Shown here in pieces: positions 15,013 through 59,526 of a stretch of 64,000 bases of DNA. A model generated the notes under the pieces. The model did not search any database and was not told where the DNA came from. It was given only the letters and a program-made list of their open reading frames with translations. Origin of the DNA: Bacteroidota bacterium (lineage in GTDB: Bacteria; Bacteroidota; Bacteroidia; Flavobacteriales_E; Vicingaceae). The stretch is from the NCBI GenBank assembly GCA_013112545.1, contig JABFGJ010000009.1:1-64000 (forward strand), read 5' to 3'. Each line of letters opens with the position of its first letter. The first letter of the stretch is position 1. The position numbers were made by a program, and so were the translations under genes.

Positions 15013-15053
15013 AAGGTCAAAAGTAATTTTTTAAACGTGGATATAAATATTAA

Positions 15054-16061: not shown

Positions 16062-16064
16062 AAC

Positions 16065-23999: not shown

Positions 24000-24074
24000 A
24001 TCTAATTAAATATTTAAAATCACTTCATTAAATAATAATTTAAAAAAATAGCCTTGTTATTATTAAATTTGAGA

Positions 24075-30000: not shown

Positions 30001-30074
30001 TGAAGCCTGGCATTTATCATTATGATTTTATTTTTAATGGAACTAGAAGGAGTGGAGAGATTATTAAGAATTAG
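24075..30074 (+). CDS. Giant T9SS-secreted adhesin-like protein with duplicated Fn3/LamG/Ig/PKD architecture
   Basis: About 1999 residues. The N-terminal signal peptide ends near SYSQ. Module set one: a fibronectin-like domain (about 35-125), a LamG-like concanavalin-fold domain (about 135-340), three Ig-like WSxG repeats (about 345-550) and three PKD domains (about 551-797, e.g. WNFGDGTTSN). Module set two repeats the order: Fn3-like (about 800), LamG-like (about 900), four Ig-like (from about 1103) and five PKD-like domains (about 1388-1800). A CARDB-like domain (about 1805-1910) follows. The end (from about 1916, VFPNPTSSLLYFNY) is a type A T9SS sorting domain, so export to the cell surface is expected. 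No catalytic motif is seen. I chose ATG 24075; a TTG at 24054 adds seven residues. It may bind the glycan made by neighbouring genes, by position only. Confidence 0.88.
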   Translation: MVILLKFILKNCFKHQFIWFFIPLIFICNLNSYSQTSINSIIPINGNIVFEHEIEFKWNKSFFESNNSYYILKIANDSALSNIVYTSVNLSSRFVTYRLTTPSKYYWQVEHYESGILTDKSGMFMFNYIDIHKLNNLSLFLDPDSGVTINGNNQIQKWLNLADTSNSAIQLTLNQQPILIVDTSLEDRKIIKFDGTDDLLQLNSSLLLSDVFTIANWGGSESVFPSYNGLITGQTSNWVFAGLGTGSTNLDVTTSFNNYLINNILSINFAPLQKFKLLNAQRNSASPLNLSNMNLGRNRTSLSRYWNGSMGDIIGFNTKLNDSLRNIVNQYYCQKYSKPLSLEEDILVTNRFCDTLYRADSIYLNYLWSNGDTTSYSLLTPGNSYQLTVTNEFGCVFTDEISVNINVFKPKSQTLCMGDTIVWDLKLPNSKFNFLWSDGSTDSSLVINDYGNYFVSITDSNGCLYKSDTLKINYDSSLKRYTLGADTTLCKGNTISLLEDSSIINSYLWSTGNTNNSQRIDTSGIYTLRIGNGQCFKNDTINITIKGEAPLVGFTTTNTCFLDSVHFFDTTTVVGGINLKSWTWNFGDGTTSNIQNPIHFYDSSGLYIVEYKVMNDSNCFSTVLIPLEIHPKPEASFTYTNNCESDSTSFTDSSIISSGAITKYLWNFGDNTTLKDTSNSSNPKYKYAQVGSYSVQLTIASNYGCLDTTIKLINIKDSPHPSFTYLNTYKDDSVKFINNTTINSGTITNYNWDFGNSLYSTKVNPKTLYSQIGKYEIALHATSNLGCTNKFIDSIEITLRPPPIPEFNTVLPKLNQVLEKKVDFLWNMKDSSTSYRFQLAKDSAFLNIITDVNFLIKPTFSQKVSQGSYFWRVFANKKSIIVDTTNTGYFHFIDIKNVDSLSLWLVADTGVVDTNGYVINWKDLSNSNIILNTPNSSNQTQVLTNGLNGYNLVNFDTGKDFFQNILNINKQNYFISAVYNFQENTSRPSRLISGQNNWNLGPYYNHRVYNSSGFVNIGLPIIKDQFVVNTAHSINDTLFQLVNDSLLGYSNVGSIPGILSLGANHPISYFNGSIAEIIMVNGSINKDEGNRIQNYLMDKYSPPVNLGSDRYVCSYPQTLSAYKDSYLAYMWNTGSTDSVITIDSSGKYLVTVTDMFNRRTVDSMFFILDTFNFKVDLISEDSTLCLDNEIEIMAGRDNLSYSWNTNENTPSIIVDSNFYYKVTVTNCLGILSTDSIRIRINNPKFSLGNDTTVCFNIPLKVQADSAFNNVSYLWSDGTSNDFITINLSNQYALTVTDQYNCSYSDTIKINVDSSLYGLTLGPDTSLCVGNEIALLNPNSSINTYAWSNNAITPSTLIDSSGNYKVTVSSSRCTVSDSINILIKGFAPEVNFSFTNTCIGNSIFLTDSTIAPIGDTLKKWSWELGDNTILNSQNISHLYTQDGNYTVILKVTTDKGCTDTISKVITIYPRPKAKFKIVENVLCAKSLVNFTDQSTISSGSFKNYSWNFGDTNSLQNTSTIKNPSHIYDTLGHYPIRLIAESNFGCIDSITKIKYINPTPNIQFDIDGTCLGDSTNFYDKTILPKGQINSYLWAFNWLPTPSGNQTSFDKNPSLYIPLANEVKVTLRVITDSTCQATIRDTFQIHHKPIANFNSLENCFNLPFQIQNSSSIIGDSIVSYQYVFDNKDTSYLENPIFSKNAIGTFDLELKIKSSNECYDSITKPIRVHELPIPNFKILNNNTGVPFKIEVLNTSSKASKYTWLFRNGAVSHDAIPNYVYLDTGVYNLQLKAESAYGCVDSLIKQIYVLPYFLDAAISNVFLTEDNKGYLNIGVQYLNSGNNTINQIEFIADVNSNAKFSESFNEIVFSGNQSAVQFSNSYIQANSNKVNYVCIKIGSVNNILDDDFTNNELCKQAFNENLYLTVFPNPTSSLLYFNYVLPNDGSLTLNLYDQMGRKVVNQIDKNQTTGVYKLAIDMSSLKPGIYHYDFIFNGTRRSGEIIKN

Positions 30075-44489: not shown

Positions 44490-44497
44490 TACATTTG
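44490..44497 (+). promoter_or_regulatory. -7 promoter element TACATTTG ahead of the B12 riboswitch
   Basis: TACATTTG fits TAnnTTTG. A start 5-7 bases downstream (about 44503) would place the 5' end of the mRNA exactly at the beginning of the cobalamin aptamer, which supports both calls. Confidence 0.55.
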
Positions 44498-44499
44498 CT

Positions 44500-44674
44500 T
44501 CGTTATTGGTTTCAAACCTGAAAGGGTTCGAATTAAAAAGGGAATCCGATGTAAATTCGGAACTGTACCCGCAGCTGTAAGCTTCAATAACCTTTTGCCA
44601 TTCAAGGGCCACTGTTCATTTTATGAATGGGAAGGCGGCAAAGGGGAAGCAAGTCAGAAGACCTGCCTATAACA
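44500..44674 (+). ncRNA. Cobalamin (vitamin B12) riboswitch
   Basis: The conserved aptamer elements are in order: gaaaggg (44520-44525), gggaatccgatgtaaattcgg (44540 onward), ctgtacccgcagctgtaagc (to about 44582) and the B12-box stretch gaagc-aagtcagaagacctgcc (44645-44667). A variable arm (about 44590-44640) pairs ccttttgcca with ggcggcaaagg. Cobalamin riboswitches lower expression of B12 uptake genes when adenosylcobalamin or a related form binds. The downstream operon encodes BtuB/F/C/D-like proteins, as expected. Confidence 0.95.
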
Positions 44675-44743
44675 AGAATACTTTCGGGATAAAAGTGAAG
44701 TGCGAGATTCTATTCTAGACAGATTCAACCCCTTTATAGCTTC

Positions 44744-44786
44744 CCGGTTTAATTAATTTATTGTTTAACAATGCAATTAAACCCGA
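44744..44786 (+). promoter_or_regulatory. Leader hairpin, possible riboswitch expression platform
   Basis: The arms ggtttaatt (about 44747-44755) and aattaaacc (about 44774-44782) can form a 9-bp stem 75 bases after the aptamer. No T-run follows, so it does not look like an intrinsic terminator; it may be a switchable stem or a translation-control element 55 bases before the first start codon. Confidence 0.35.
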
Positions 44787-44838
44787 GCAAAACGACATGC
44801 AAATGTCTCTCTGATTTACTTGCAAAAAATAATTTCTA

Positions 44839-46107
44839 ATGAAGAAAAATTATTTTTTGGGAGCCTTACTTTTTGTAACCTCCATGGGATATTCCCAGAA
44901 AACTATTATCGTAAATGGTGGCAAATATGGAAACCAAAATGAAAATGTAAATGTCATGGTTTACGATGCAAATACGAATACGCATCGAGTCATTGACACC
45001 ATTCACAGTCAATCGGTACAAGAAATTATCTTTGAAGGCACTACAGCTTATGTGGCAGCTCAAGATTCCATCGTTTCTTATGATTTAAAAACTGAAAAGC
45101 GCATAGCTGCCACAAGTTTTAATGGTTTAAGCACGAAATCCTTGGCCATTTTAGGAACAGATTTATTGGTTGGTAATTATTATGGAAAAACAACTGATAA
45201 CCTATACCTATATGATAAGCAAACCTTAGTGTTAAGAGATTCGATAACAGCATTAAGCAAAACAGTTTCGAGTATATTAACCTTTGGAAATAAAGCTTAT
45301 ATACCACAAAACGTACAAACTGCTAACTATACAGACACATTAGCTTATATCGTGGTTATAGATATCCCGAATAGAACCATAATTGATACAATCTCAATTT
45401 CAGGATATTCTGGAGATTTTGGGGAATTGATTTTAAACCCCAATCATTTAGGGTTCATTTCTATTAATTCTCAATCAAATACCATTTCAAAATTTAGTTT
45501 CAACAACCTGAACGCTGGAATTAACACAAGTTTCACCAATGATTTAAGTGTTACTAATCGTTCTTTATATACTGTATATAATGATACTTTGTTTTTGAGA
45601 ATGGATAATGGCATAGGAGCTTTAAATATAAATTCACTTGCTTTAATTGACGCTAAAATTGTGGATACAGTAATTACAGGTTTTACGTATGATACCCTGA
45701 ATTCAAAATTCTATGTCACTCAAACTGATTTCTTTAGTTATCAAGCTGCCAAAGAATATGGCCGAAATGGTATAAAAGTAAAAGAGTTTACAGTTGGTTT
45801 TTCACCAGAAGTTATTCGTATGTATTATGGGCAAAGTGTAGGCATAGAACAGCTAACATCTAAAGAATTTTCCATAACTGTTTATCCTAACCCAACAGCA
45901 GATTATATCAATCTAGATTTTTCAACTCTAAATACCAATCAAGTCGAAGCGGTTTTAATTACTCAGAATGGTCAAGAAGTATTTAGAAAAAGGCTTAGCA
46001 TAAATTCAAACAGAATTGACCTATCAAATTGCAACTCAGGTTTTTACTTCTTGATTATAAAGACAGACAAATCGGTTTACACAACTAAAATAGTAAAGTA
46101 CGATTGA
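44839..46107 (+). CDS. T9SS-sorted beta-propeller-like protein, first gene of the B12 operon
   Basis: A 422-residue secreted protein. The signal peptide is MKKNYFLGALLFVTSMGYSQ. Residues ~20-330 contain repeated four-strand blades with YncE/DUF5074-like strings (DSIVSYDLKTEKRIAATSFN, NLYLYDKQTLVLRDSI, AYIVVIDIPNRTIIDTI). The end (ITVYPNPTADYINLDF, then GFYFLIIKTDKS) is a T9SS type A sorting domain, predicting attachment at the cell surface. It is directly under the cobalamin riboswitch. Its blade pattern is like that of the BtuG lipoprotein later in the operon, suggesting a second surface corrinoid-binding propeller; binding itself is inference. The next gene starts inside its stop codon (TTGA overlap). 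Confidence 0.85.
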   Translation: MKKNYFLGALLFVTSMGYSQKTIIVNGGKYGNQNENVNVMVYDANTNTHRVIDTIHSQSVQEIIFEGTTAYVAAQDSIVSYDLKTEKRIAATSFNGLSTKSLAILGTDLLVGNYYGKTTDNLYLYDKQTLVLRDSITALSKTVSSILTFGNKAYIPQNVQTANYTDTLAYIVVIDIPNRTIIDTISISGYSGDFGELILNPNHLGFISINSQSNTISKFSFNNLNAGINTSFTNDLSVTNRSLYTVYNDTLFLRMDNGIGALNINSLALIDAKIVDTVITGFTYDTLNSKFYVTQTDFFSYQAAKEYGRNGIKVKEFTVGFSPEVIRMYYGQSVGIEQLTSKEFSITVYPNPTADYINLDFSTLNTNQVEAVLITQNGQEVFRKRLSINSNRIDLSNCNSGFYFLIIKTDKSVYTTKIVKYD

Positions 46108-47069
46108 AAGCGATTTTAAATATTCTATTGGTATTAATTTCCTTGAGTTCCTTGGCTCAAGGAAGTTTTTCACCAGCTGTAGGCGAGGTTGGTTGCACAG
46201 CCATTCACAAAGATTCGAGCATTATAAAAGCTTGGGCAAAACAATGCACAATTCAAAGAGGATATCTCAACATTTTAGATAAAACACTCGCTAACACATC
46301 TGTTGGCGACAGTACAAAGGCTTTGGGTATTGCCGATAACTTAGTTGTTAGTTTGGGCGATAGCGGTGTAGCTACAGTTACTTTTGAAGGAAAAATATTC
46401 AATGGGCCAGGATTTGATTTTGCAGTTTATGAAAATGGACATGACAACTATTTTTTAGAGTTGGCCTTTGTTGAAGTAAGTTCAGATGGAATTAATTATA
46501 CTCGTTTTCCTGCTCAATCTGAAACTGATACAAGCGCACAAGTAAAATCTTTTGATTCTTTAGACGCTCGAAACATACATAACCTAGCTGGCAAATATCG
46601 TTTGTATTATGGAGTACCATTCGATTTAGAAGACCTGAAAGGAACTCCCAATTTGGATTTAGATCAAATTACACACATACGAATTGTAGATGTTGTCGGC
46701 ACTATGAATCCCAATTTTGCAAGTAGAGATCATATAGGCAGAAAAGTGAACGACCCATTTCCAACTGCTTTTCCATCAGGTGGATTTGATTTAGATGCAG
46801 TAGCAGCAATATATATAAAGCCGACATCAATTGAGGAATTCACTAAACAAACTTTGCTGGTATTTCCTAATCCCAGCCAAGGTGTTTTCTACTTTTCCGA
46901 TAGTTTAAATGGGAGTGTAGCTAAGGTCTTTTCAATGGATGGAAAATTGGTTTTTAAAGGGGCGGTTATAAACAGTGAGTTGGACTTGTCATTTTTAAAA
47001 ACAGGCTATTATCAAATCTTAATTCTAAATCAAGATAAGGTATCCATAGCTAAAGTAAAAATCGAATGA
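46104..47069 (+). CDS. T9SS-sorted surface protein of the B12 operon
   Basis: A 321-residue secreted protein starting with TTG that overlaps the previous stop by 4 bases. The signal peptide ends near SLAQ. The main domain (about 20-235) has a jelly-roll-like pattern: LGDSGVATVTFEGKIFNGPG, FDFAVYENGHDNYFLELAFV, EVSSDGINYTRFP and a C-terminal DLDAVAAIYIKP. It resembles proteins annotated as 'cell surface protein' beside BtuB-type receptors. A T9SS sorting domain closes it (LVFPNPSQGVFYF, then LKTGYYQILIL). It may be an accessory corrinoid-binding surface protein comparable in role to Bacteroides BtuH, which I cannot confirm from sequence alone. Confidence 0.8.
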   Translation: MKAILNILLVLISLSSLAQGSFSPAVGEVGCTAIHKDSSIIKAWAKQCTIQRGYLNILDKTLANTSVGDSTKALGIADNLVVSLGDSGVATVTFEGKIFNGPGFDFAVYENGHDNYFLELAFVEVSSDGINYTRFPAQSETDTSAQVKSFDSLDARNIHNLAGKYRLYYGVPFDLEDLKGTPNLDLDQITHIRIVDVVGTMNPNFASRDHIGRKVNDPFPTAFPSGGFDLDAVAAIYIKPTSIEEFTKQTLLVFPNPSQGVFYFSDSLNGSVAKVFSMDGKLVFKGAVINSELDLSFLKTGYYQILILNQDKVSIAKVKIE

Positions 47070-48958
47070 AAAAATGGTATATCATCGGTTTAATTGGGTT
47101 TTGGGGCAATGTATTTTCCCAAAATCAACTGATGGATACTGTTACGATACCTGTAGTTTCTATTGAAGCAAAACGCATTGAATTAGAAAACGAACTTAAA
47201 ATTGACAGCAGTTTTAAAAATGACGCACTAAACCAAACTCTAGCTGATTTAATTTCTAAAACAACTCCAGTATTTGTAAAATCTTATGGAATTGGGAGTC
47301 AAGCCACAGTTTCATTAAGAGGAAGTGCAGCAGCACATACAGCCGTTATTTGGAATGGAATCAGTCTGAATTCTAGCATGAATGGCCTAGTTGATTTGGC
47401 ACTTTTTCCCTCTTTCTTTTTTGAAGAAGCCTCATTGAATTTAGGAAGCTCTAGTTTGGCTACTTCAAGTGGTGGAATAGGAGGGGCTATCCATTTTGAC
47501 AATCGTGCTAAGTCGAATGAAATATTAGTTCTCGATCAACAAATAGGCTCTTTTGGATTAAAACAAAGCAAAATTGGATTTAATATAAAACATAAAAATT
47601 TTAGTTCTAAAACAAAACTATTCTACAAAACAGCTGACAATAATTTTACATATCGAGACATAGCAAAAGAAGGTTTTCCAAATAAAAAGTTGGAAAATGC
47701 TAGCATACATCAAAAAGGATTTAAGCAAGATTTTTATTGGCGAAACAATGATAAATCAAAGTATAGCTTGCAGTTTTGGTATTTCAATTCCGATAGAGAG
47801 CTACCTTCTATTTATACTGTAAATAATGTGGTAGAAAATCAAGTTGATCAGTCGTTTAAAGGTTTGCTTGTAGCTACTTATTATTATGGTAAATCAATAT
47901 TAAATATTAAAACTGCACTTATTAAAGATGAATTGAATTACCAAAACGAAGCAGCTAATTTTGCTACCTATTCTAATAGTTTTAGTTCCAAATCAATCAT
48001 AGAATTAAGCCGAGATTTCAAACGCAAAATAAATGTTAAGCTGAGCAGCAACATCGACTTTAATCAAGCAGAACATAGCGCTTATCAAAGCAAGTTATAT
48101 CAGAACCGAATTTCTGTTTATGCTCATATAGCAAAAAAAATCAATAAAAAATTAACCGTTCAATTGGCAAGCAGACAAGAGTGGGTTTTAGAGAAAACGA
48201 ATTATTTTTTACCAAGTATTGCATTGGATTATAAAATCATAAACGCTAATTTAAACCTATTTGCAAGCTATGGTCAAAATTTAAAGTATCCTTCTTTAAA
48301 TGATTTGTATTGGACACCTGGCGGCAACCCAGAACTGAAGCCAGAACAAAGTGAAAGTAAAGAGTTTGGAGTTCGCTTTGATAAAAAAGTTTTGGATCAA
48401 TCAATACATGCTAAAAGCAGTATAAGTGTTTATCATGCTACGATTGATGATTATATTTTGTGGAGGCCTAGTGCTTTTGGTTATTGGATGGCATTTAATT
48501 TAAATACAGTTGAAAGTCAGGGCTTAGAATATCAATTAACACTTAAAAGTTTGAAAACCAAATGGGCTAAATCACTCTTTTTCAATTATACCTATTCTAA
48601 ATCAGCAACAACTGAAAAAGTTCATGAATTTGATAAATCCGTTGGAAAACAATTGATTTACATACCAGAGCATAGCTTTAATTTGAATTTAAAAAGTAAT
48701 TATCAGAATTATTATTTATCATGTAATTGGCAATTCATTGGCGCAAGGTATATCAGCTCAGACAACAAGATTTTTCTTCCAAGTTATGGACTTATAGATT
48801 TAAATATTGGGAAAACACTATTGTTTAAGTCTAATGCGATAGATGTTGGCTTTTCGGTACTTAATGTCATGGATATAGAGTATCAAGCAATTCAGTGGAG
48901 GCCAATGCCCGGAAGAAATTACTTAGTTCAATTAAAATATAAACTAAATGCGAAATAA
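47066..48958 (+). CDS. btuB: BtuB-like TonB-dependent outer membrane receptor
   Basis: A 630-residue outer membrane receptor starting at an ATGA overlap with the upstream gene. A signal peptide (to SQ, about residue 19) is followed by the plug domain (about 40-150) with LADLISKTTPVFVKSYGIGS, VSLRGSAAAHTAVIWNGI and SSGGIGGAIHFDN. A beta-barrel runs to the C-terminus, with SYGQNLKYPSLNDLYWTPGG and GNPELKPEQSESKEFGVRF near the end of the barrel. The size is close to E. coli BtuB. Position under a cobalamin riboswitch makes corrinoids the likely ligand. It overlaps the next gene by 11 bases. Confidence 0.9.
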   Translation: MKKWYIIGLIGFWGNVFSQNQLMDTVTIPVVSIEAKRIELENELKIDSSFKNDALNQTLADLISKTTPVFVKSYGIGSQATVSLRGSAAAHTAVIWNGISLNSSMNGLVDLALFPSFFFEEASLNLGSSSLATSSGGIGGAIHFDNRAKSNEILVLDQQIGSFGLKQSKIGFNIKHKNFSSKTKLFYKTADNNFTYRDIAKEGFPNKKLENASIHQKGFKQDFYWRNNDKSKYSLQFWYFNSDRELPSIYTVNNVVENQVDQSFKGLLVATYYYGKSILNIKTALIKDELNYQNEAANFATYSNSFSSKSIIELSRDFKRKINVKLSSNIDFNQAEHSAYQSKLYQNRISVYAHIAKKINKKLTVQLASRQEWVLEKTNYFLPSIALDYKIINANLNLFASYGQNLKYPSLNDLYWTPGGNPELKPEQSESKEFGVRFDKKVLDQSIHAKSSISVYHATIDDYILWRPSAFGYWMAFNLNTVESQGLEYQLTLKSLKTKWAKSLFFNYTYSKSATTEKVHEFDKSVGKQLIYIPEHSFNLNLKSNYQNYYLSCNWQFIGARYISSDNKIFLPSYGLIDLNIGKTLLFKSNAIDVGFSVLNVMDIEYQAIQWRPMPGRNYLVQLKYKLNAK

Positions 48959-49970
48959 AACCTGGTACATACTGTGGCTAATAGTAGTGTCTTCATGTGT
49001 TGGTACAGAGCCTCCCATTGAGCAAATTGTTAATCATTATGATGTAATCGTTTTAAACGAAGGTAATTTTAGATCGGGAAATGCCAGTGTAAACCTCTAT
49101 AATTCTAGTTCTGGAGAAGTTTTAGAAAATGTTTTTCAAAATAATAATCAGGGGCGACCGCTTGGTGATGTAGCTCAATCTATGATTCAGCACGATGGGA
49201 AGGGCTATATAGTGGTAAATAATTCCAATAAAATAGAAGTAATTGATTTAAATAATTTTAAGTCAGTTGGAAGCATTACTGGTTTAAACTCACCACGTTA
49301 TATTTTACCAGTAGGCAGAAACAAAGCTTATGTTTCTGATTTGTATCAAGATGAAATTTACGTTATTGATTTAGTTTCATTAGCGATTCTTAAAAAAATA
49401 CCTTCAGCAGGTTGGATAGAAGAAATGACCATGAGTAGTGGAAAGGCATTTGTATGTCATGTAGATAGTAATCAGGTTTGGGTGTTTGATGTGCAAAAAG
49501 ATACTGTAATTCAAAAAATTAATACGGGTATAGAACCTAATAGTATAGTTACAGATTTGAATGGTAATGTCTGGGTAGCTTGTTCTGGTGGATTTGGAGT
49601 CGGCAAGCCTACACTAATTCAAATAAACCCGATTAACTATCAAAAGATGAAGGTATTTGAAATAGATGATTTGAATAAAAGCATGAGTTCTTTAGCTTTA
49701 AATCCGTTTATGAATGAAGTTTTCTTTCTTTCAACCGATGTGTTTAAACTTTCAATAGATGATACAGTATTGACTTCAACTCCATTTATTAGAGCCAATA
49801 ATCGAATATTTCGCTCACTTGGAATACACCCCTCTTCTGGAGATATTTATATTTTAGATGCAATTGATTATCAACAGTTAGGAGTGGCTTATCGTTATGA
49901 TTACTTGGGAGTTGAAATGGCGAACTTTAGCGTTGGTTTAATTCCTGGTTACATTCATTTTAACTTATGA
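48948..49970 (+). CDS. BtuG-like surface lipoprotein (YncE/DUF5074 beta-propeller)
   Basis: A 340-residue lipoprotein. The signal peptide ends in the lipobox VVSSC (Cys17). The propeller has repeated blades: VIVLNEGNFRSGNASVNLYN, YIVVNNSNKIEVIDLNNF, AYVSDLYQDEIYVIDLVSL, GKAFVCHVDSNQVWVFDVQ and WVACSGGFG. The N-terminal NEGNF and the NNSNK string are characteristic of DUF5074 proteins that cap BtuB in Bacteroides (BtuG), where they bind B12 with high affinity. Here it directly follows BtuB, overlapping it by 11 bases, which strengthens the BtuG reading. It overlaps the DUF71 gene by 4 bases. Confidence 0.85.
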   Translation: MRNKTWYILWLIVVSSCVGTEPPIEQIVNHYDVIVLNEGNFRSGNASVNLYNSSSGEVLENVFQNNNQGRPLGDVAQSMIQHDGKGYIVVNNSNKIEVIDLNNFKSVGSITGLNSPRYILPVGRNKAYVSDLYQDEIYVIDLVSLAILKKIPSAGWIEEMTMSSGKAFVCHVDSNQVWVFDVQKDTVIQKINTGIEPNSIVTDLNGNVWVACSGGFGVGKPTLIQINPINYQKMKVFEIDDLNKSMSSLALNPFMNEVFFLSTDVFKLSIDDTVLTSTPFIRANNRIFRSLGIHPSSGDIYILDAIDYQQLGVAYRYDYLGVEMANFSVGLIPGYIHFNL

Positions 49971-50656
49971 AAATAAAAGTAGCAATGATGTGGAGTGGAG
50001 GCAAAGATTCTGCTTTTGCCTTGCATCGTGTTTTGCAAGATAAAAAATATGAAGTCTGTTGTTTGCTTTCTACCTTTTCAAAAGAAACAAATCGGCTACT
50101 AATGCATGGCGTAGCTGAGGAAATCATAGATGAACAAGCCAAATCTATTGGTTTGCCCTTGATTAAAGTGTTTGTTGAAAATTCTCAAGTTGAAGGGTAT
50201 GAAAAAGCGATGGAAATCGAATTGCATAAATTGCAAAAACTAGGCATAAATACCATGGTTTTTGGAGATTTATTTTTAGAAGATTTAAGACAGTACAGAG
50301 AGAAAAATCTTGAGAAAATAGGAGCAAAGGCTTATTTTCCTTTGTGGGGAATGGACACTAAATCTTTAATTAATGAGTTTATAGCTATTGGGTTTAAAAC
50401 GATATGTTGTTGTGTTAATTTAAATGTGCTTTCAGAAGAATTTTTAGGCAAAATAATTGACAATAATTGGGTATCAAGTTTGCCTAAAGAAGTTGACCCT
50501 TGTGGAGAAAATGGAGAATATCATAGTTGCTGCATAGATGGTCCAATTTTTAAAAGCGCATTAAGTGTTGAAAATAAAGAAGTTGTAATTAAAGCATACC
50601 CATTAAATGAAATAGAACTTAAATACTCATTTGTTGATATACAATTACATAATTAG
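49967..50656 (+). CDS. DUF71/COG2102 PP-loop ATPase, B12-linked group
   Basis: A 229-residue cytosolic protein of the adenine nucleotide alpha-hydrolase fold. The PP-loop is MWSGGKDSAFALHR near the N-terminus; other DUF71 marks are LLSTFSKETNRLLMHG, VFGDLFLEDLRQYREK, PLWGMDT and DPCGENGEYH. In archaea and eukaryotes the family includes diphthine-ammonia ligase (Dph6). Comparative genomics has proposed a separate bacterial branch for B12 salvage; this gene, embedded in a riboswitch-led B12 operon, fits that branch. It may amidate or hydrolyse a corrinoid side chain, which is inference. The protein is Cys-rich (ICCCVN, HSCCIDGP). Confidence 0.85.
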   Translation: MKIKVAMMWSGGKDSAFALHRVLQDKKYEVCCLLSTFSKETNRLLMHGVAEEIIDEQAKSIGLPLIKVFVENSQVEGYEKAMEIELHKLQKLGINTMVFGDLFLEDLRQYREKNLEKIGAKAYFPLWGMDTKSLINEFIAIGFKTICCCVNLNVLSEEFLGKIIDNNWVSSLPKEVDPCGENGEYHSCCIDGPIFKSALSVENKEVVIKAYPLNEIELKYSFVDIQLHN

Positions 50657-50716
50657 GTTCTTATTTATAATGGTTTTACGATATTTGCTTTACTTGAGAA
50701 ATAATAGATTTTAGGC

Positions 50717-53700
50717 TTGAAGTATAATTCCCTATATAGAATTTTTGTTGTTTTATTTTTAGTGATTTGTAGTGCTTATGTAAATGCACAAAATACTGCT
50801 ATGATCATGGAAATGATTGTTACCGATGATGGTAAGAAAATGAGCGGTGCTGAAATTCAGGTTTTTCGCGATGGCCGTTTTGTAGAAAAGGTGTTGACCG
50901 ATGGAAAAGGAAGAGCAGACATTCCAATGGATAAAGGAGGTGTTTATACGATTTCCATTTCTGGAAATGGAATGGTTACCAAAAAAATTGAAGTAAATAC
51001 CAAAAACACTCCTGGTGATTTAACAGAGCCCATTATTTATCCAGCAGAAGTTGATATTTTCCCAAAATTAGAAGGATTAAATTACAATATATTAAATCAA
51101 CCAATTGGAAAAATTGCCTTTAATTCTGAATATGGAGATTTCAGCGCAGATGAAGGTCATACCAAACAAATGCAATCGGAATTAAAAAAATTGACCGAAA
51201 ACTACATTGCTAAAAAGGCTCAAGAAGCTAGCAATGAAAAGGAAAAACAAAAACAATACGACGAAGCAATAAAAATTGCAGATAAAGCCTTTGCAGCAGA
51301 AGAGTGGGAAAAAGCTGAAGCAGAATATAAAAAAGCAGCAGCCATTTTACCAGTAGAGACTTATCCATCTTTTCAATTAGCTGAATTAAAAACTAAATTA
51401 ATCGCTATTCGAAAAGGAAATGAACGTTATGACCAAGCAATGCAGGCTGCAAAACAAGCGGAATCTGCAAAAGATATAGCAACTGCAATAGCCGAATACA
51501 AAAGAGCATCTGGTTATAAACCTAATGAAGAAGCACCAAAATCAAAAATTACAGAACTTCAAAACTTTTTGGCTAATGAAGCTAAAGCTGAGCAAAATTA
51601 TCTTGCAGCTATAGAAAAAGGAGATAATGCTTTAAAAGCAAGTGACTTAGTAACGGCAAAATCTTCTTTTGAAGAAGCTACTAAAATAAAACCATCTGAG
51701 TCATATCCTAAAAACAAACTAGCTGAAATCAATGATATACTTGCAAAAAAACTGCAAAAAGAAACAGACTACAACAATGCAATTAAAGCAGGCGATGACG
51801 CTTTAACTGCTAAAGAATACGAGAAAGCAAAAGCATCTTATCAAAAAGCATTAGGAGTAAAGCCAACTGAAAAATACCCGACTGACCAAATCGCTAAAGT
51901 AGATGGACTTTTAGCCGAATCGGCTAAAAAAGAGCAAGATTATTTAGCTGCAGTTGAATTGGGCGATAATGCTTTAAAAGCTAATAAATACGATGAAGCA
52001 AAAGCAGCTTTTGCCAATGCGAGCAAAATAAAACCTTCAGAAGAATACCCTAAAAACAAAATCAAAGAAATTGATCAGTTTTTAGCAGAAAATGCAGCTA
52101 AAGAGAAAGGATATCAAGAAAAGATTGCTGCAGCCGACAAAGCACTAGCAGCCAAAGATTATGAAACGGCAAAAAGCACCTATGCAGCGGCAGGACAAAT
52201 AAAGCCAACTGAAGTTTACCCAAAAGACAAAATAAAAGAGATTGATGGAATTTTAGCAGCGAATGCAGAAAAGGAAAAATCATACAATGATGCCATTGCT
52301 AAGGGCGACCAAGCTTTAGCAGCTAAAAACTATGAAGCAGCTAAAACTTCATATAATGCAGCATTAGCAATTAAGCCTGATGAAAAATATCCTAAAGATA
52401 AAATCTCTGAAATTGAAACAATAGTTGTTGGTCAACAGAAAATAGAAGAGGAGTATCAAGCAGCTATTAAAAACGGAGATGCTGCATTAGCAGGAAACAA
52501 ACTAGAGGATGCAAAAAAAGCCTATTTGTCAGCATCTAGCATTAAACCAACTGAAACATACCCTCAAGATAAGTTAAAAGAAATTGATGGTATTATAGCA
52601 GCAAATGCCGAAAAAGAATCAGCCTATATAGCTGCTATTACTGAGGGTGATGCCGCATTAAAAGCCAATGAGTTTTCTAAATCAAAAACTGCATATACTA
52701 AAGCATTAAGTTTAAAGCCAGAAGAAGCATATCCGAAAGCTCAATTAAAAATAGTAGATGAGAAAAAGGCTGCACTTGAAGCAGAAAAAGCAGCTGCTGA
52801 AAAATTAGAGGCAGATTATCAAGCTGCAATTCAATCAGGAGATCAAGCACTAGCTAATAAAGATTTCTCAGCCGCTAAAACATCATTTGAAAAAGCAAAA
52901 TCGTTAAAATCTGAAGAGCAATATCCACAAGATAAACTGAAAGAAATAGCTGGAATTCTTGCTGCTAATGCCGAAAAAGATGCGAATTATCAAAAAGCAA
53001 TAACAGAAGGAGATAAATTATTTGCCTCACAAGATTATCAAGCAGCTAAGTCAGCATATGAAAACGCTTTAAGTGTAAAACCAGAAGAATCATATCCGAA
53101 AGAAAAGTTAGGTGATATAGAGTTGAAGCTAGCAGAAATTGCTAAAAAAGAGGCTGACGCAGCAAAACTAGAAACCGATTATCAAGCAGCAATTAAATTA
53201 GGAGATGAGAAAATTGCTGCAAATGATTTAGCAGCTGCTACTACAGCATTTAACAATGCAAAGAAATTAAAACCATCAGAACAATATCCAGTTGATCAAT
53301 TGGCCGAAATCCAAAAACTTCAGGAAAAACTAGCTGCAGAAGAGGCAGAAAAAGCTCGATTAGAAGCATTGCAGAAAGAATATGATGCAGCTATAGCAAA
53401 AGCAGATCAGTTGATGAAAGTAAAAGATTTGAATGGTGCAAGAACCTCTTATCAAGCTGCATTGGCTTTAAAACCAACAGAGAATTATCCAAAAACTAAA
53501 ATTGAAGAGATAAACAGCATTTTGGATGATGTTGCAAAACAAGATCAAGCTTATCAAACAGCAATTGCAAGTGGAGATAAATTATTTACAGAAGAAAAAT
53601 TTGAAGATGCAAAATCAAAATATGCTGAAGCATCTAGTATTAAGCCGGAAGAAAATTATCCTAAAGAAAAAATTTCAGCAATTGATACAAAATTAGCCGA

Positions 53701-56614
53701 ATTGGCCGCTAAACAAGAAGAAATTAGGCTGAAAAATGAGCAAGCCGCTGAATTAGATGCAAAATTTCAAGCAGCTGTTAAAGAGGGTGATGCAGCTTTT
53801 AAGGCCAATGAATTTGACAAAGCTGAAGCATCATATACTAAGGCATTAAGTTTTAAACCTGCAGAAACTTATCCTCAATCACAATTAGCTGCAATAGATC
53901 AGAAAAGGCTTGACTTAGCTAGTAAAGCAGAGCAGGAAGCAGCAGCTGCTGCAAAAGCTGAGTTGGACGCAAAATACAATGCAATTGTAAAAGAAGCTGA
54001 TGATTTTTTTAAAGCAAATGATTTTGAAAACGCTAGTGCAAAATACAATGCTGCTTTAGGGCTAAAGTCAAGTGAAGAATATCCTAAATCTCAATTAGCA
54101 GCCATAGACGCTAAGAAAAAAGACTTAGCTAATAAAGCAGAGCAAGAAGCTGCTGCTGCCGCAAAGGCTGAGTTGGATGCTAAGTATCAAGGTGCATTAA
54201 CTGAGGCCGACAACGCATTTAATGCTGAAGATTTTGATGCTGCTGAGAAAGGATATATGAAAGCATTGAGTTTTAAACCAAGTGAAACTTATCCTCAATC
54301 ACAATTGGGCTTAATAGATGCAAAAAGAGAAGAAGCGGCAGCTTTAGCTGCAAACGAAGCAAATGCCGCAGCAAAAGCAAAGGCTGCAGCTGAATTGGAT
54401 GCAAAATATCAAGCAGCCATTGCTGAAGGGGACGCTGCTTTCAATTCCAACCAATTTGATGCTTCCGAAAAAGGATATATGAAAGCTTTGAGTTTTAAGC
54501 CAAGCGAAACTTATCCCCAATCTCAACTAGGTTTAATTGATGCAAAAAAGGAAGAAATTGCTTTAAAACTTAAGGCTGAAGAAAATGCTAAAGCTGAAGC
54601 TGCTAGACTTGCCAAGTTGGAACAGAATTATTTAGCTGCCATAGAATTGGGTGATCAGAAACTACAATTAAATGCACTTAATGAGGCAAAAAGTGCATTC
54701 CAAAACGCTCTAAGTTTTAAACCTGAAGAAGCTTACCCTAAAAACAAAATTGCAGAAATTGATGCATTAATAAAGGCTGAGAAAGAATTGAATTCAAAAC
54801 AAGCAGCAGAGCTAAATGCAAAATATCAAGAAGTGATTATTCTTGCAGATCAGGCTTTCTCTTCACGCGCTCTTGATGTAGCTGAAAGTAAATACAAAGA
54901 AGCACAAACCTATAAATTAGACGAACCTTACCCTGCCAAACAATTATTAGCTATAGAGCAATTAAAAGCTGAGAAAAAAGCGAGAGAAGAAGCTAGAAAA
55001 ATAGAGCTTGAAAGAGAAGCTAGAAATGAGGCTTCTTATCAAACAGCTATTGTTGAAGGAGATCAAGCTTTTAATAATGAGGATTACTCTTTAGCAAAAT
55101 CGAAGTATGAATTGGCTTTAGGGTTAAAACCCTCTGAGGCATATCCCAAATCAAAATTGGCTGAAATCCAAAAGATGCTAGATGCACAATCTGCTGCATT
55201 GGCCGAAGAGCAAAGAAAAAAGAAAGAAGCTTCTGAATTAGCCTCTCGATATGGTCAGTTAATTGTTGAAGGAGACAATGCTTTTAGTAAAGGAAGTTTA
55301 TCTGCTGCAAAGTCTAGTTTTTCACAAGCCTTAAGCATTAAACCAGATGAAAGCTATCCGAAAGAGCAACTAAGATTAATAGAAGCAGAGTTAGAAAAAG
55401 ATCGCTTGGCTAGAGAAGAAGAATTGAGAAAATTAGATGAACCAATTCAAATTAAAAAAGGACCAGTTTCCTCTATCAATGGAGATGCTGAAGCAGAAAT
55501 TGATAAGATTTATCAAGAAATGTGGGCAAAAAAGAATAGTGATAAAAACGCAATTGTAGAAGAAGCGAATAAGCAGTATTTAGATATAGCCAGAGAGAAC
55601 AAAGAAAAAGAAGAAAAAAGACGTCAAAATGCTTTAGAGCGAATTGAAGAAATTTCTGTTAGTATGGAATTATCTAAAGAGGAATCGGAAGAATACTACA
55701 TGCAAAATTATGAAACAGTAATCGATAAAGAGAAGGCAATAAAAGAAGTGAACGAAACATGGCAAAGAGAATCGGAGCGTGTAAGAAATAATGTTTTTGA
55801 GGATAAAGCGAGTCAGGCTTCAGGTGAAATAAACTTCAACACCAATCGAAACAAAGAGATAATAGAAGGAAAAAATGAAGCCATAGAACGGATAAGAGAA
55901 AACTTAGCAGAAGAAGAAAAACAAAATTTTTCTGAACAAGATGAGCGAATTTTAATTGCAAAAGAGGAAAGTGAAGAAAAATTGAAAGCCATCATTGAAT
56001 ACAACCAAGGTCGTCAGGAAGCGAATATTGATAAAATGAAAGATTATGCTGGCGATGAATTAAGTGATTGGGAGCAAACAAATAAACGATATGTTTCTGA
56101 ATCTGATTCTAAGCTAGAAGATTCTAAAAATAACATTTACAAGAAAAGAGAAGACGAAAGAGCCTATGCAAAATACTTATCAGAAAATCAAGGCATAGAG
56201 AAATACCAACAAAAGGTAAATGCACAAGAATTAGAAATTTATCAATTTAATCAGCAAAGAAAAGACAACTTTAAAGAAAACCAACAAAAAATTGAAGAGA
56301 AGACTATTGTTTTAAAAGAAGAAACAGAACGATTGAACGAAGTTGCTGAAAATAATAGACAAACGAACTCAAACCAAGAGTTTTATATGGGTGCTGACTT
56401 GCCAAAACAAAGTCGATTGGCAGAAAAGTATCCACAAGGTGTAACCGAGGAAATCATAGAAAATCAAAACAACAGTACCACACTTCGTAGAATAGTTGTG
56501 AAAGGAACTGAAGTTGATATTTATGAAAAGACTCTTTATACTTGGGGCGGTGTTTTTTATACCAAAAATGGGGATAATATTACCAAGGAAGATTGGGATA
56601 CATATAGTAAATAG
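50717..56614 (+). CDS. 1965-residue envelope protein with 22 TPR-like repeats, inside the B12 operon
   Basis: Starts with TTG; the only alternative ATG would lose the signal peptide (YRIFVVLFLVICSAYVNAQ). Residues ~27-110 look like a carboxypeptidase-regulatory-like beta domain. Residues ~179-1575 hold 22 imperfect repeats of 50-70 residues, of the form Y-x2-A-I-x2-G-D-x-A-L...A-K-x2-Y-x2-A-L-x-I-K-P-x-E-x-Y-P-K...I, which read as TPR-like helix pairs. Residues ~1580-1890 are Glu/Lys-rich and likely coiled coil. The last ~75 residues (YPQGVTEEIIENQNNSTTLR and WGGVFYTKNGDNITKEDW) form a compact C-terminal domain seen in other Bacteroidota proteins. No catalytic motif. It lies 60 bases after DUF71 and 8 before btuF. 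Function unknown; an envelope scaffold is a guess. Confidence 0.88.
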   Translation: MKYNSLYRIFVVLFLVICSAYVNAQNTAMIMEMIVTDDGKKMSGAEIQVFRDGRFVEKVLTDGKGRADIPMDKGGVYTISISGNGMVTKKIEVNTKNTPGDLTEPIIYPAEVDIFPKLEGLNYNILNQPIGKIAFNSEYGDFSADEGHTKQMQSELKKLTENYIAKKAQEASNEKEKQKQYDEAIKIADKAFAAEEWEKAEAEYKKAAAILPVETYPSFQLAELKTKLIAIRKGNERYDQAMQAAKQAESAKDIATAIAEYKRASGYKPNEEAPKSKITELQNFLANEAKAEQNYLAAIEKGDNALKASDLVTAKSSFEEATKIKPSESYPKNKLAEINDILAKKLQKETDYNNAIKAGDDALTAKEYEKAKASYQKALGVKPTEKYPTDQIAKVDGLLAESAKKEQDYLAAVELGDNALKANKYDEAKAAFANASKIKPSEEYPKNKIKEIDQFLAENAAKEKGYQEKIAAADKALAAKDYETAKSTYAAAGQIKPTEVYPKDKIKEIDGILAANAEKEKSYNDAIAKGDQALAAKNYEAAKTSYNAALAIKPDEKYPKDKISEIETIVVGQQKIEEEYQAAIKNGDAALAGNKLEDAKKAYLSASSIKPTETYPQDKLKEIDGIIAANAEKESAYIAAITEGDAALKANEFSKSKTAYTKALSLKPEEAYPKAQLKIVDEKKAALEAEKAAAEKLEADYQAAIQSGDQALANKDFSAAKTSFEKAKSLKSEEQYPQDKLKEIAGILAANAEKDANYQKAITEGDKLFASQDYQAAKSAYENALSVKPEESYPKEKLGDIELKLAEIAKKEADAAKLETDYQAAIKLGDEKIAANDLAAATTAFNNAKKLKPSEQYPVDQLAEIQKLQEKLAAEEAEKARLEALQKEYDAAIAKADQLMKVKDLNGARTSYQAALALKPTENYPKTKIEEINSILDDVAKQDQAYQTAIASGDKLFTEEKFEDAKSKYAEASSIKPEENYPKEKISAIDTKLAELAAKQEEIRLKNEQAAELDAKFQAAVKEGDAAFKANEFDKAEASYTKALSFKPAETYPQSQLAAIDQKRLDLASKAEQEAAAAAKAELDAKYNAIVKEADDFFKANDFENASAKYNAALGLKSSEEYPKSQLAAIDAKKKDLANKAEQEAAAAAKAELDAKYQGALTEADNAFNAEDFDAAEKGYMKALSFKPSETYPQSQLGLIDAKREEAAALAANEANAAAKAKAAAELDAKYQAAIAEGDAAFNSNQFDASEKGYMKALSFKPSETYPQSQLGLIDAKKEEIALKLKAEENAKAEAARLAKLEQNYLAAIELGDQKLQLNALNEAKSAFQNALSFKPEEAYPKNKIAEIDALIKAEKELNSKQAAELNAKYQEVIILADQAFSSRALDVAESKYKEAQTYKLDEPYPAKQLLAIEQLKAEKKAREEARKIELEREARNEASYQTAIVEGDQAFNNEDYSLAKSKYELALGLKPSEAYPKSKLAEIQKMLDAQSAALAEEQRKKKEASELASRYGQLIVEGDNAFSKGSLSAAKSSFSQALSIKPDESYPKEQLRLIEAELEKDRLAREEELRKLDEPIQIKKGPVSSINGDAEAEIDKIYQEMWAKKNSDKNAIVEEANKQYLDIARENKEKEEKRRQNALERIEEISVSMELSKEESEEYYMQNYETVIDKEKAIKEVNETWQRESERVRNNVFEDKASQASGEINFNTNRNKEIIEGKNEAIERIRENLAEEEKQNFSEQDERILIAKEESEEKLKAIIEYNQGRQEANIDKMKDYAGDELSDWEQTNKRYVSESDSKLEDSKNNIYKKREDERAYAKYLSENQGIEKYQQKVNAQELEIYQFNQQRKDNFKENQQKIEEKTIVLKEETERLNEVAENNRQTNSNQEFYMGADLPKQSRLAEKYPQGVTEEIIENQNNSTTLRRIVVKGTEVDIYEKTLYTWGGVFYTKNGDNITKEDWDTYSK

Positions 56615-56622
56615 TTCATTCT

Positions 56623-57747
56623 ATGCGAATTATTTATCTTTTTATATTCTCATTCCTTATTTCTTGCCAATCAATTTCTGAGGAAAATAAATCCAAAAAC
56701 AATCTGGTTAAACCTCCTAGTTCTAAGTCGCATTTTTCTATCCAGAAAAAAGGAAATTCATACTTAATTGAAGTTAAAAAACCATTTGTAGGTGCTGATT
56801 TTACAGAGCGATATTTACTTTACCCTAAAGACTCTCTATTATATAAAAAGGATAGTATTATTCATTATATTCCTTATCCTGTTAATTCCTTAGCTGTTAC
56901 TTCTACAACACATGTGGGCTTTTTAAATGCAATTGATGGTTTAAAATACATTAAAGCAGCAAATAACCTAGATTGGGTGTATAACCCAAAGTTTAAACAA
57001 TTGCATGAAGAAGGAAAAATTGCAAGCATCGGCAATCGAGACTTAAACCATGAAAGTATTATACAGCAAGAAGTTGATGTCGTGTTAAGTTATGCAATTG
57101 ACATGAGTAGCTACAATGAAATTAAGCGACTAAGAGCTTTGGGTCAGCAAGTTGTATTAATTTCTGAGTTTATGGAGCAAAACCCCTTAGATAAAGCTGC
57201 ATGGCTAGAAGTATTTGCTTTATTGATAGGAAAACAGCAAGCCGCAGAAGAATATCTTTTAGATTTAAAGAAGAATTATATTTCGTTAAAAGAATCGGCT
57301 CAAAATAAACCTGGAAATACAACATTATTAATGGGCTTTCCTTGGAAAGGAACATGGTATATGAGTGGTGGAATGTCTTTTCAAGCAACTTTGTTTAAAG
57401 ATGCAAATTGCCGCTATTTGTGGGCTAATACCCCAAATGAAAGTGGAATGCCACTCAATATAGAGGAAGTGATTCATAAAGCTCTTGATGCTGATGTGTG
57501 GGTAAATACCAATGCGATGAACTCTTTAGATGAAATCAAAGAGGTTGATGCTCGATTCACTGCTTTTTCAGCCTTTAAAAACAAAGCGATTTATAATTTC
57601 AATAAGCGAATAAATGCCAATGGGGGTAATGATTACTGGGAATCAGGAGTTGTTCATCCAGATTGGATATTACAAGACTTAATTAAAATAATTCATCCAG
57701 ATTTACTCCAAGATCGAGATTTTATATATTATCAAAAGTTGAATTAA
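56623..57747 (+). CDS. btuF: BtuF-like cobalamin ABC transporter substrate-binding lipoprotein
   Basis: A 374-residue periplasmic binding lipoprotein of the PF01497 family. The signal peptide MRIIYLFIFSFLISC ends in a lipobox. The two alpha/beta lobes are joined by a long helix. Features are RIAN-type strands around VGFLNAIDGLKYI, EVDVVLSYAI, LRALGQQVVLISEFMEQNP and, in the C-lobe, MGFPWKGTWYMSGGMS and DADVWVNT. It would deliver cobalamin to BtuC. The stop codon overlaps the btuC start by one base. Longer than E. coli BtuF (266), as is common in Bacteroidota. Ligand assignment rests on the riboswitch and BtuB context. Confidence 0.87.
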   Translation: MRIIYLFIFSFLISCQSISEENKSKNNLVKPPSSKSHFSIQKKGNSYLIEVKKPFVGADFTERYLLYPKDSLLYKKDSIIHYIPYPVNSLAVTSTTHVGFLNAIDGLKYIKAANNLDWVYNPKFKQLHEEGKIASIGNRDLNHESIIQQEVDVVLSYAIDMSSYNEIKRLRALGQQVVLISEFMEQNPLDKAAWLEVFALLIGKQQAAEEYLLDLKKNYISLKESAQNKPGNTTLLMGFPWKGTWYMSGGMSFQATLFKDANCRYLWANTPNESGMPLNIEEVIHKALDADVWVNTNAMNSLDEIKEVDARFTAFSAFKNKAIYNFNKRINANGGNDYWESGVVHPDWILQDLIKIIHPDLLQDRDFIYYQKLN

Positions 57748-58769
57748 TGGGAGGTCGTAAAAAAAATAGCATTTTGTTTTTGATATTGATACTCAGTGTT
57801 CCAACTTTGTTTGCTTTAGACATTCTATTCGGTACTGTTTCAATTCCTTTTGTTGATTTTAAATCTGCTTTTACTGGTGGTGAGCTTAGCCGTGGAACTG
57901 AAATTATAATTTTTCAATCGAGAATTCCAAAGGCTTTTACAGCTATAATTTGCGGTGCAGCTTTATCATTATCAGGTTTACTGATGCAAACCTTATTTCG
58001 TAATCCATTAGCAGGACCATATATCTTAGGAGTTAGTTCTGGTGCTGGATTGGGTGTCGCAATATTCGTTATGGGTGCAGGTGCTATAGGATTTAGTTTA
58101 ACAAATTCTATCACACTTACTTTAGCTTCTATGCTTGGTTCTCTAGGAATTCTTTTAATCCTTTTTTTAGTTTCCACCAAAGTAAAAGATGTAATGACAT
58201 TACTGATCTTGGGAGTGATGATAGGCTCAATTGCAACAGCTTTAATTGGTATAATTCAATATTTTACATCTGATGCACAATTAAAGTCTTTTTTAATTTG
58301 GACTTTAGGTAGTTTAGAAGGAGTTTCTTTTGATCATTTAAAATTGATGATGCTCATTTTATTGCCTTCAAGCATTGTCGCTTTTGGAATCTCTAAAAAC
58401 TTAAATGCGATCTTATTGGGAGATAATTACGCTAAAAGTTTAGGTATTTCTTTAAAAACTAGTCGATTATTAATTATAATCTTGACAGGTGTTTTAGCTG
58501 GAATGGTCACTGCTTTTTGTGGGCCAATTGGTTTTGTAGGCATTATAGTTCCTCACATTTGTCGTTTGCTTTTTCAAACAGCTGAACATAAGATATTAAT
58601 TCCTGGTTCTTTATTATTAGGCGCTTCAATGATGTTGCTTAGCGATTTGTTAGCCCACTTGCCAGGGGATGGATTTAGTCTTCCGATAAATTCGATAACT
58701 TCTATAATCGGAATCCCAATTATTATTTGGATTATTTTCAATAAACGTTCTATCTCAAATAGTTTTTAA
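57747..58769 (+). CDS. btuC: BtuC-like ABC transporter permease (FecCD family)
   Basis: A 340-residue inner membrane permease with about ten transmembrane helices. Family marks are QSRIPKAFTAIICGAALSLS, LMQTLFRNPLAGPYILGVSS and the coupling-helix region FCGPIGFVGIIVPHICRLLF. It forms the translocation path with the BtuD ATPase encoded one base downstream. Length and motifs match BtuC/FecD/FhuB single units. Confidence 0.93.
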   Translation: MGGRKKNSILFLILILSVPTLFALDILFGTVSIPFVDFKSAFTGGELSRGTEIIIFQSRIPKAFTAIICGAALSLSGLLMQTLFRNPLAGPYILGVSSGAGLGVAIFVMGAGAIGFSLTNSITLTLASMLGSLGILLILFLVSTKVKDVMTLLILGVMIGSIATALIGIIQYFTSDAQLKSFLIWTLGSLEGVSFDHLKLMMLILLPSSIVAFGISKNLNAILLGDNYAKSLGISLKTSRLLIIILTGVLAGMVTAFCGPIGFVGIIVPHICRLLFQTAEHKILIPGSLLLGASMMLLSDLLAHLPGDGFSLPINSITSIIGIPIIIWIIFNKRSISNSF

Positions 58770-58770
58770 A

Positions 58771-59490
58771 ATGAATATTATTCAAATAAATAATTTGTTG
58801 ATAAGGTATAGCAATGAAAAAGCAGTCATTTCAAATATGTCTATCGACTTTCACGAAGGCAAAATGATTGCTTTGATTGGTGAGAATGGAGTTGGAAAAT
58901 CTACTTTATTAAAATGTATTGCTGGTCTTATTCCATTTCAAAGTGGTTCCGTTTATATTGAAGGAAAAACAATTGATCAAATAAGTGCTAGTGATTTTGC
59001 TAAAAAAGTAGCAGTTGTATTAACTGAGCCTGTAAACAATGGAATGTTAACTGTTAGTGATTTTATCAGTTATGGTAGGTATCCATATATCAGTTGGCTG
59101 GGAAGATTGCAAACTAAAGATTATGAATTAATTGAAAAGGCTATTGAACGCTGTAATTTATCGAGTTTAAAAGATAAAAAGTTAGTTGAATTAAGTGATG
59201 GCCAAAGACAAAAAGTAATGATTGCTAGAGCAATAGCGCAAGATACTTCAATTTTAATTTTAGATGAACCTACAACTCATTTGGATTATAAAAACACTAA
59301 TTTCATCTTTAAAATGCTGCAAGATTTGAGTAGAGAAGAAAGGAAAACTATACTTTTTTCTACACATCAAATCGAACGAGCACTAAGATTTGCTGATTAT
59401 ATGGTTATTCAAAAAGAGAATGCAATCTCAAGCTATGAAACTCAAGAATTTATAGCAAACAATGTTTTGATGGATGAGTTTAAATCATAG
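58771..59490 (+). CDS. btuD: BtuD-like ABC transporter ATPase
   Basis: A 239-residue ATP-binding protein. Walker A is GENGVGKSTLL, the signature is LSDGQRQKVMIARA, Walker B is ILILDEPTTHLD and the switch His is in FSTHQIE. It powers cobalamin import through BtuC. It is the last gene of the operon, followed immediately by a strong terminator. Confidence 0.93.
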   Translation: MNIIQINNLLIRYSNEKAVISNMSIDFHEGKMIALIGENGVGKSTLLKCIAGLIPFQSGSVYIEGKTIDQISASDFAKKVAVVLTEPVNNGMLTVSDFISYGRYPYISWLGRLQTKDYELIEKAIERCNLSSLKDKKLVELSDGQRQKVMIARAIAQDTSILILDEPTTHLDYKNTNFIFKMLQDLSREERKTILFSTHQIERALRFADYMVIQKENAISSYETQEFIANNVLMDEFKS

Positions 59491-59491
59491 T

Positions 59492-59526
59492 AAAGGGTAG
59501 CCCAATTTATTGAGCTACCCTTTTTT
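59492..59526 (+). terminator. Rho-independent terminator of the B12 operon
   Basis: Bases 59492-59501 (aaagggtagc) pair perfectly with 59514-59523 (gctacccttt) over a 12-base loop, followed by a run of T. It starts one base after the btuD stop and ends next to the stop of the leftward gene at 59527, so it may serve both strands. Confidence 0.88.

Follow-up and report, generated by a model that had tools for sequence, protein, structure and literature searches.

The question raised by this locus is whether nine genes encoded behind a cobalamin riboswitch serve the import of vitamin B12 as one unit, and what two T9SS-tailed proteins and a giant protein contribute to it. The segment 44490-59526 of the window (the whole stretch of DNA analysed, 64,000 nucleotides) is, as read from its gene content, a predicted corrinoid (vitamin B12) scavenging operon, and the riboswitch is the predicted B12 sensor of the genes downstream (Table 1). 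The match to RF00174 exceeds the cut-off of 31.5 bits, covers the full covariance model (positions 1-189) and is the single copy in the whole genome. The TAnnTTTG box with which it begins (44490-44497) occurs across the window fewer times than expected by chance. Nine plus-strand ORFs follow in tight packing up to the terminator, with intergenic gaps, in operon order, of -4, -4, -11, -4, 60, 8, -1 and 1 nt, the sole real gap being the 60 nt directly 5' of the giant gene. The terminator, a 14-bp stem with T6 after it, lies in the interval that separates btuD from a converging gene. Sigma-70-type promoters and terminators inside the operon were discarded as candidates, their counts being equal to chance. 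BtuB, a lipidated BtuG, BtuF, BtuC and BtuD are encoded together, as is expected of a BtuB-BtuG-BtuFCD uptake system, and the DUF71 protein carries ENGEYH instead of EGGE/DxE, which places it in the DUF71-B12 subgroup; this motif and the clustering with B12 transport genes are as predicted for that subgroup, with no difference seen (PMC3541065). The layout given in the original prediction, with one cobalamin riboswitch, nine packed same-strand genes and a terminator, is corroborated by these data. Its gene list (BtuB, BtuG-like, BtuF, BtuC and BtuD, a DUF71 protein, two T9SS proteins and a repeat protein of 1965 residues) was correct in outline by family matches, the length of the last included, while overlooking that P1 is a BtuG-type propeller and that a conserved motif is present in the gap 5' of the giant.

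Table 1. Features of the predicted corrinoid operon, in window coordinates
Feature	Coordinates	Strand	Evidence and remarks
Cobalamin riboswitch RF00174	44490..44684	+	114.3 bits; begins with TACATTTG, a match to the Bacteroidota -7 box TAnnTTTG
P1, predicted secreted BtuG-type beta-propeller with T9SS type A C-terminal tail	44839..46107	+	TIGR04183 E=2.6e-13; BtuG profile prob 99.4, E=8e-22
P2, conserved beta-rich protein without Pfam core domain, T9SS type A tail	46104..47069	+	tail E=2e-6; 22/22 members tailed
BtuB, TonB-dependent receptor	47066..48958	+	TIGR01779 E=6e-29, under that model's cut-off
BtuG, surface lipoprotein propeller	48948..49970	+	lipobox VSSC; E=7e-54 to solved BtuG
DUF71-B12 subgroup ATP pyrophosphatase	49967..50656	+	ENGEYH motif
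Conserved element TTACGATATTTG 5' of giant, candidate internal promoter or regulatory site	50676..50687	+	conservation upstream of giants
Giant, TTG start	50717..56614	+	signal peptide, regulatory-like N-domain, 22 TPR-like repeats, acidic helical stretch, C-domain
BtuF, lipoprotein corrinoid-binding protein	56623..57747	+	lipobox LISC
BtuC, permease	57747..58769	+	family match
BtuD, ATPase	58771..59490	+	family match
Intrinsic terminator, probably bidirectional	59492..59526	.	stem and T run

The riboswitch was searched for in 60 related genomes, the regions were fetched and their ORFs were labelled by similarity to the window proteins. The full order riboswitch-P1-P2-BtuB-BtuG-DUF71-giant-BtuF-BtuC-BtuD is shared by six further family genomes (G014, G021, G007, G011, G009 and G019), and all the operon genes are present in G002, its BtuF coming from a separate BtuF search. 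A partial order is seen in G026, G033 and G036, where the contigs end, in G005, where it is split across two contigs, and in G001 and G018, which have the rear part. Allowing for contig ends, the full order is present in about ten genomes of the family. The same gene order was to be sought in relatives, its absence having been named beforehand as evidence against the proposal; the association is kept. Most such operons (L051-L057) encode a leaderless BtuF-like protein of ~267 aa between BtuG and DUF71, of which there is none in the window operon. Contigs C10 and C15 of G021 (L052, L053) each carry the riboswitch operon in nearly identical form, perhaps through a duplication introduced by the assembly. 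In riboswitch operons of other genera (L071, L072, L074, L086, L087, L089), a protein of 1150-1450 aa lies right after BtuG (or DUF71), and the L071 copy resembles a subtilase with PKD-like repeats and a T9SS-type end.

The giant has a mass of 219 kDa, a pI of 5.0 and a signal peptide recognised by eye. Its N-domain is weakly similar to CarboxypepD_reg (E=8e-5, below the cut-off), its TPR-like units, of 57-74 aa each, span residues 181-1570, and the acidic helical stretch is followed by a conserved C-terminal domain of ~70 residues. This C-domain was modelled with four strands and one helix at moderate confidence (pLDDT 80.7), and its assignment to a known fold was discarded, no Foldseek match at E<=0.001 being obtained with that model. 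Neither a T9SS tail nor a lipobox was recognised in the protein, a full-length paralogue was not found in its own genome, and a DNA-level tandem repeat scan found no long-period array. Three short secreted proteins of the same genome (L130, L131 and L132, 156-186 aa) resemble the giant N-domain alone. PorE of the T9SS is a periplasmic protein with TPR repeats and a carboxypeptidase-regulatory-like domain. In these respects the giant is comparable, with a weaker regulatory-like domain and a predicted periplasmic location. Unlike PorE, it has no lipobox, no propeller and no OmpA-type peptidoglycan-binding domain by Pfam, and it possesses 22 repeats and a different C-domain, the TPR repeats and the weak regulatory domain being all that it shares with the set of PorE features.

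We infer a role of the giant in B12 import, and the more specific proposal of a periplasmic scaffold serving that import is possible, on balance doubtful. That the giant is a general envelope protein, which travels beside BtuFCD in this family under its own promoter and takes no part in B12 import, comes near to an even chance. The C-domain is present in 146 of 295 Bacteroidia genomes, in up to 8 copies and mostly away from riboswitch and B12 genes, and the giant protein type is therefore not B12-specific. This reading is also in line with the tandem small giant versions that stand alone in G266 and with genus g4, in which the giant is located beside triosephosphate isomerase without a BtuF neighbour; giants in the latter setting form a separate group in the tree of N- and C-domains. 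Against it stands the adjacency of giant and BtuF on the same strand, found in 28 of 37 family genomes and 13 of 16 genera when counted from coordinate tables, in which split contigs may hide more; the chance per genome is well under 1%, and shared descent explains part of the pattern. In the same tree, the 13 giants from riboswitch operons or from a DUF71-giant-BtuFCD setting form one group (100/99), a clade that includes most of the riboswitch-operon giants. Giants or short relatives are also found within the riboswitch operons of G008, G040 and L141, which they entered separately, and this too counts against a general envelope protein. The proximity of riboswitch and giant in G154 and G056 was discarded as operon membership, minus-strand genes lying in between. 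In L141, a Crocinitomicaceae riboswitch operon, three small giant relatives lie in tandem after BtuG (13940-17553), and those of 415 and 580 aa consist of the N-domain, few repeats and the C-domain. In some genera (L117-L125), one or two extra genes separate the giant from BtuF, encoding a secreted protein of ~330 aa and a lipoprotein-like protein of ~309 aa. The original prediction had counted the giant as part of an extended corrinoid capture system; corrinoid capture by the giant, or a place for it at the cell surface, finds no support in its plain signal peptide or in a C-domain from a broad family mostly unlinked to B12.

The conserved element in the gap before the giant bears on the same alternative. 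The motif CGATATTTG is found exactly upstream of 27 of the 32 giants in the set, and with one mismatch upstream of three more, whether the giant belongs to a riboswitch operon or lies elsewhere, including places distant from any riboswitch. Its occurrence outside B12 loci is consistent with a general envelope protein. It is also consistent with separate control within the operon, since a motif that precedes nearly all giants, whatever their context, speaks against control of the giant by the riboswitch alone. The 60 bases upstream of giants showed no other conserved box. In a set of 35 genes of the giant family, drawn almost entirely from elsewhere in the class, 12 match the motif at 8 or 9 of its 9 bases, a level reached by 4.3% of random segments. 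In its own genome the site is rare, with the giant and one RND-like gene as the only genes downstream of an intergenic site, and a genome-wide regulon was discarded, there being 8 exact sites of TNCGATATTTG and 10 of the reversed control. TAnnTTTG is absent from the gap before the giant; the motif differs from this Bacteroidota -7 box by one base, and therefore a promoter and the site of a specific regulator are both possible. The giant thus appears to have its own control site. This candidate site weakens the idea of a single nine-gene unit and remains compatible with read-through from the riboswitch. The claim that all nine genes form one riboswitch-controlled unit is accordingly not sustained, the more so as giants are located in other loci in several genera. 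The element was observed in L051-L061, L090 and L111-L126, with variants in other families.

The first T9SS-tailed protein, P1, has a signal peptide recognised by eye and a TIGR04183 match above the cut-off. The P1 and BtuG families align over ~280 columns, and it follows that the operon encodes two predicted BtuG-type propellers, one lipidated and one T9SS-tailed. The P-R-Y and N-N-S stretches, invariant in BtuG, are not kept in P1 in the profile alignment, and the ligand of P1 is uncertain because several BtuG-invariant residues are thus missing. In sister genera, the slot of P1 is held by a DUF4465 protein with a T9SS tail, both features being carried by 17/17 aligned members, and the profile of these proteins matches solved B12-binding DUF4465 proteins at E ~1e-35. 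DUF4465 is described as a B12-binding family (BtuJ), with a Fluviicola taffensis protein among the binders; the available portions of this survey present DUF4465 proteins as lipoproteins or periplasmic and make no mention of T9SS sorting (PMC13398666). The window operon has no DUF4465/BtuJ protein.

P2 likewise combines a signal peptide, seen by eye, with a T9SS type A tail above the cut-off, on a strongly conserved core outside any Pfam family. For its model (pLDDT 87.8), structure comparison found no solved counterpart of the core, only the tail having a convincing one. A DUF4465 domain was not detected in P2, its similarity to DUF4465 proteins being confined to the T9SS tail, and no match to solved BtuH or BtuJ was found. 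The interpretation of P2 as a DUF4465 or BtuH relative was discarded, there being neither a sequence match beyond the tail nor a fold match. Genome contigs were scanned with patterns from the core and hits confirmed with the whole protein, a procedure in which some bias toward tailed relatives is possible, and the best 80 of at least 514 relatives were kept. BtuB or BtuG is encoded within a few genes of P2 at 61 of 78 loci of this best-80 set. The P2 core was not found in four genomes of family f33 that were tested, and not reliably in a fifth.

We propose that P1 and P2 would bind B12. It is somewhat unlikely that they are instead non-binding T9SS surface proteins of the B12 regulon, such as anchors, spacers or release factors. 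The residues lost from P1 and the lack of a known B12-binding fold in P2 are what such proteins would display, and BtuL, from such an operon in B. thetaiotaomicron, influences vesicle release without binding B12 (PMC12751083). Conversely, P1 matches the BtuG fold along its length and shares its slot with a B12-binding family, and a single protein of 554-568 aa unites DUF4465, P2 and a T9SS tail at two loci (L163 and L177).

At the sequence level there is good support for a T9SS route of corrinoid-capture proteins, and the existence of T9SS-routed corrinoid helpers is considered very probable. P1 and P2 both have the form of T9SS type A cargo, with a signal peptide and a C-terminal TIGR04183/PF18962 match above the cut-off, and SprA is encoded in the same genome. 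In the P2-found loci (best 80 of at least 514), the T9SS tail is present in 15/15 P1, 76/76 P2 and 37/39 DUF4465 proteins, as opposed to 0/57 BtuG. A crude pattern recognises a lipobox in 48 of these BtuG proteins, and the two tail-less DUF4465 proteins look like lipoproteins. Routing is therefore protein-specific, BtuG serving as an internal contrast, and the proposal that surface helpers are exported through T9SS rather than lipidated is upheld. That this is just an ordinary Bacteroidota Btu operon, with T9SS tails as the usual secretion habit of the group, is improbable: every transport part does belong to a known family and such tails are very common (genomes such as G033 and G290 have 66 to 118 P2-profile matches, mostly to the tail), but this contrast with BtuG speaks against it, as does the finding of no description of T9SS-sorted Btu proteins, P2 or the giant in the literature searched, which was the open-access part, subscription literature being outside its scope.

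On the favoured interpretation, of a scavenging operon with T9SS-exported helpers, P1 and P2 would cross the outer membrane through T9SS, sit on the surface and hand corrinoid to BtuB-BtuG, replacing the lipidated helpers of gut Bacteroides. BtuG would act as a lid on BtuB, the corrinoid would pass onward via BtuF and then BtuCD, and the DUF71-B12 protein would work in cobamide salvage. The giant may form a long rod of repeats in the periplasm and, as a scaffold beside BtuF, organise the envelope stage of import, under its own control site plus read-through from the riboswitch. A scavenging habit fits the genome content: B12-binding-domain proteins are encoded, and no CobJ/CbiH match exceeds the curated cut-off. 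We regard this explanation as a whole as probable. Of the extended T9SS-dependent corrinoid capture first envisaged, the T9SS helpers and the conserved association stand, and the single unit and the part of the giant are not supported. It may further be speculated, with a rather low likelihood, that many T9SS-bearing Bacteroidota export a corrinoid-capture layer (a BtuG-type propeller or DUF4465, together with P2) via T9SS, and that one family couples this layer to a giant periplasmic rod with its own regulator, guiding corrinoid between BtuB and BtuF.

Cobamide operon 2 of B. thetaiotaomicron, BtuJ2-BtuH2-BtuL-BtuG2-BtuB2-BtuFCD-BtuX, has in common with the window operon a riboswitch, BtuB with a BtuG lid, BtuFCD and extra surface proteins (PMC12751083, PMC10404256). 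Its helpers are lipoproteins, whereas P1 and P2 are T9SS-tailed, and the window operon adds DUF71 and the giant. The locus thus suggests that other Bacteroidota have a T9SS-exported counterpart to the lipid-anchored B12 capture of gut Bacteroides, drawing on two or more protein families of the B12 system and on P2 as an undescribed one. This would add a new class to T9SS cargo and supply new candidates for B12 binding. Whether scarce cofactors have dedicated scaffolds in the periplasm is a question to which the giant and its motif offer a lead. Elsewhere in the window (24054-30074), a protein of 2006 aa, unrelated to the operon, has PKD domains and a T9SS tail.
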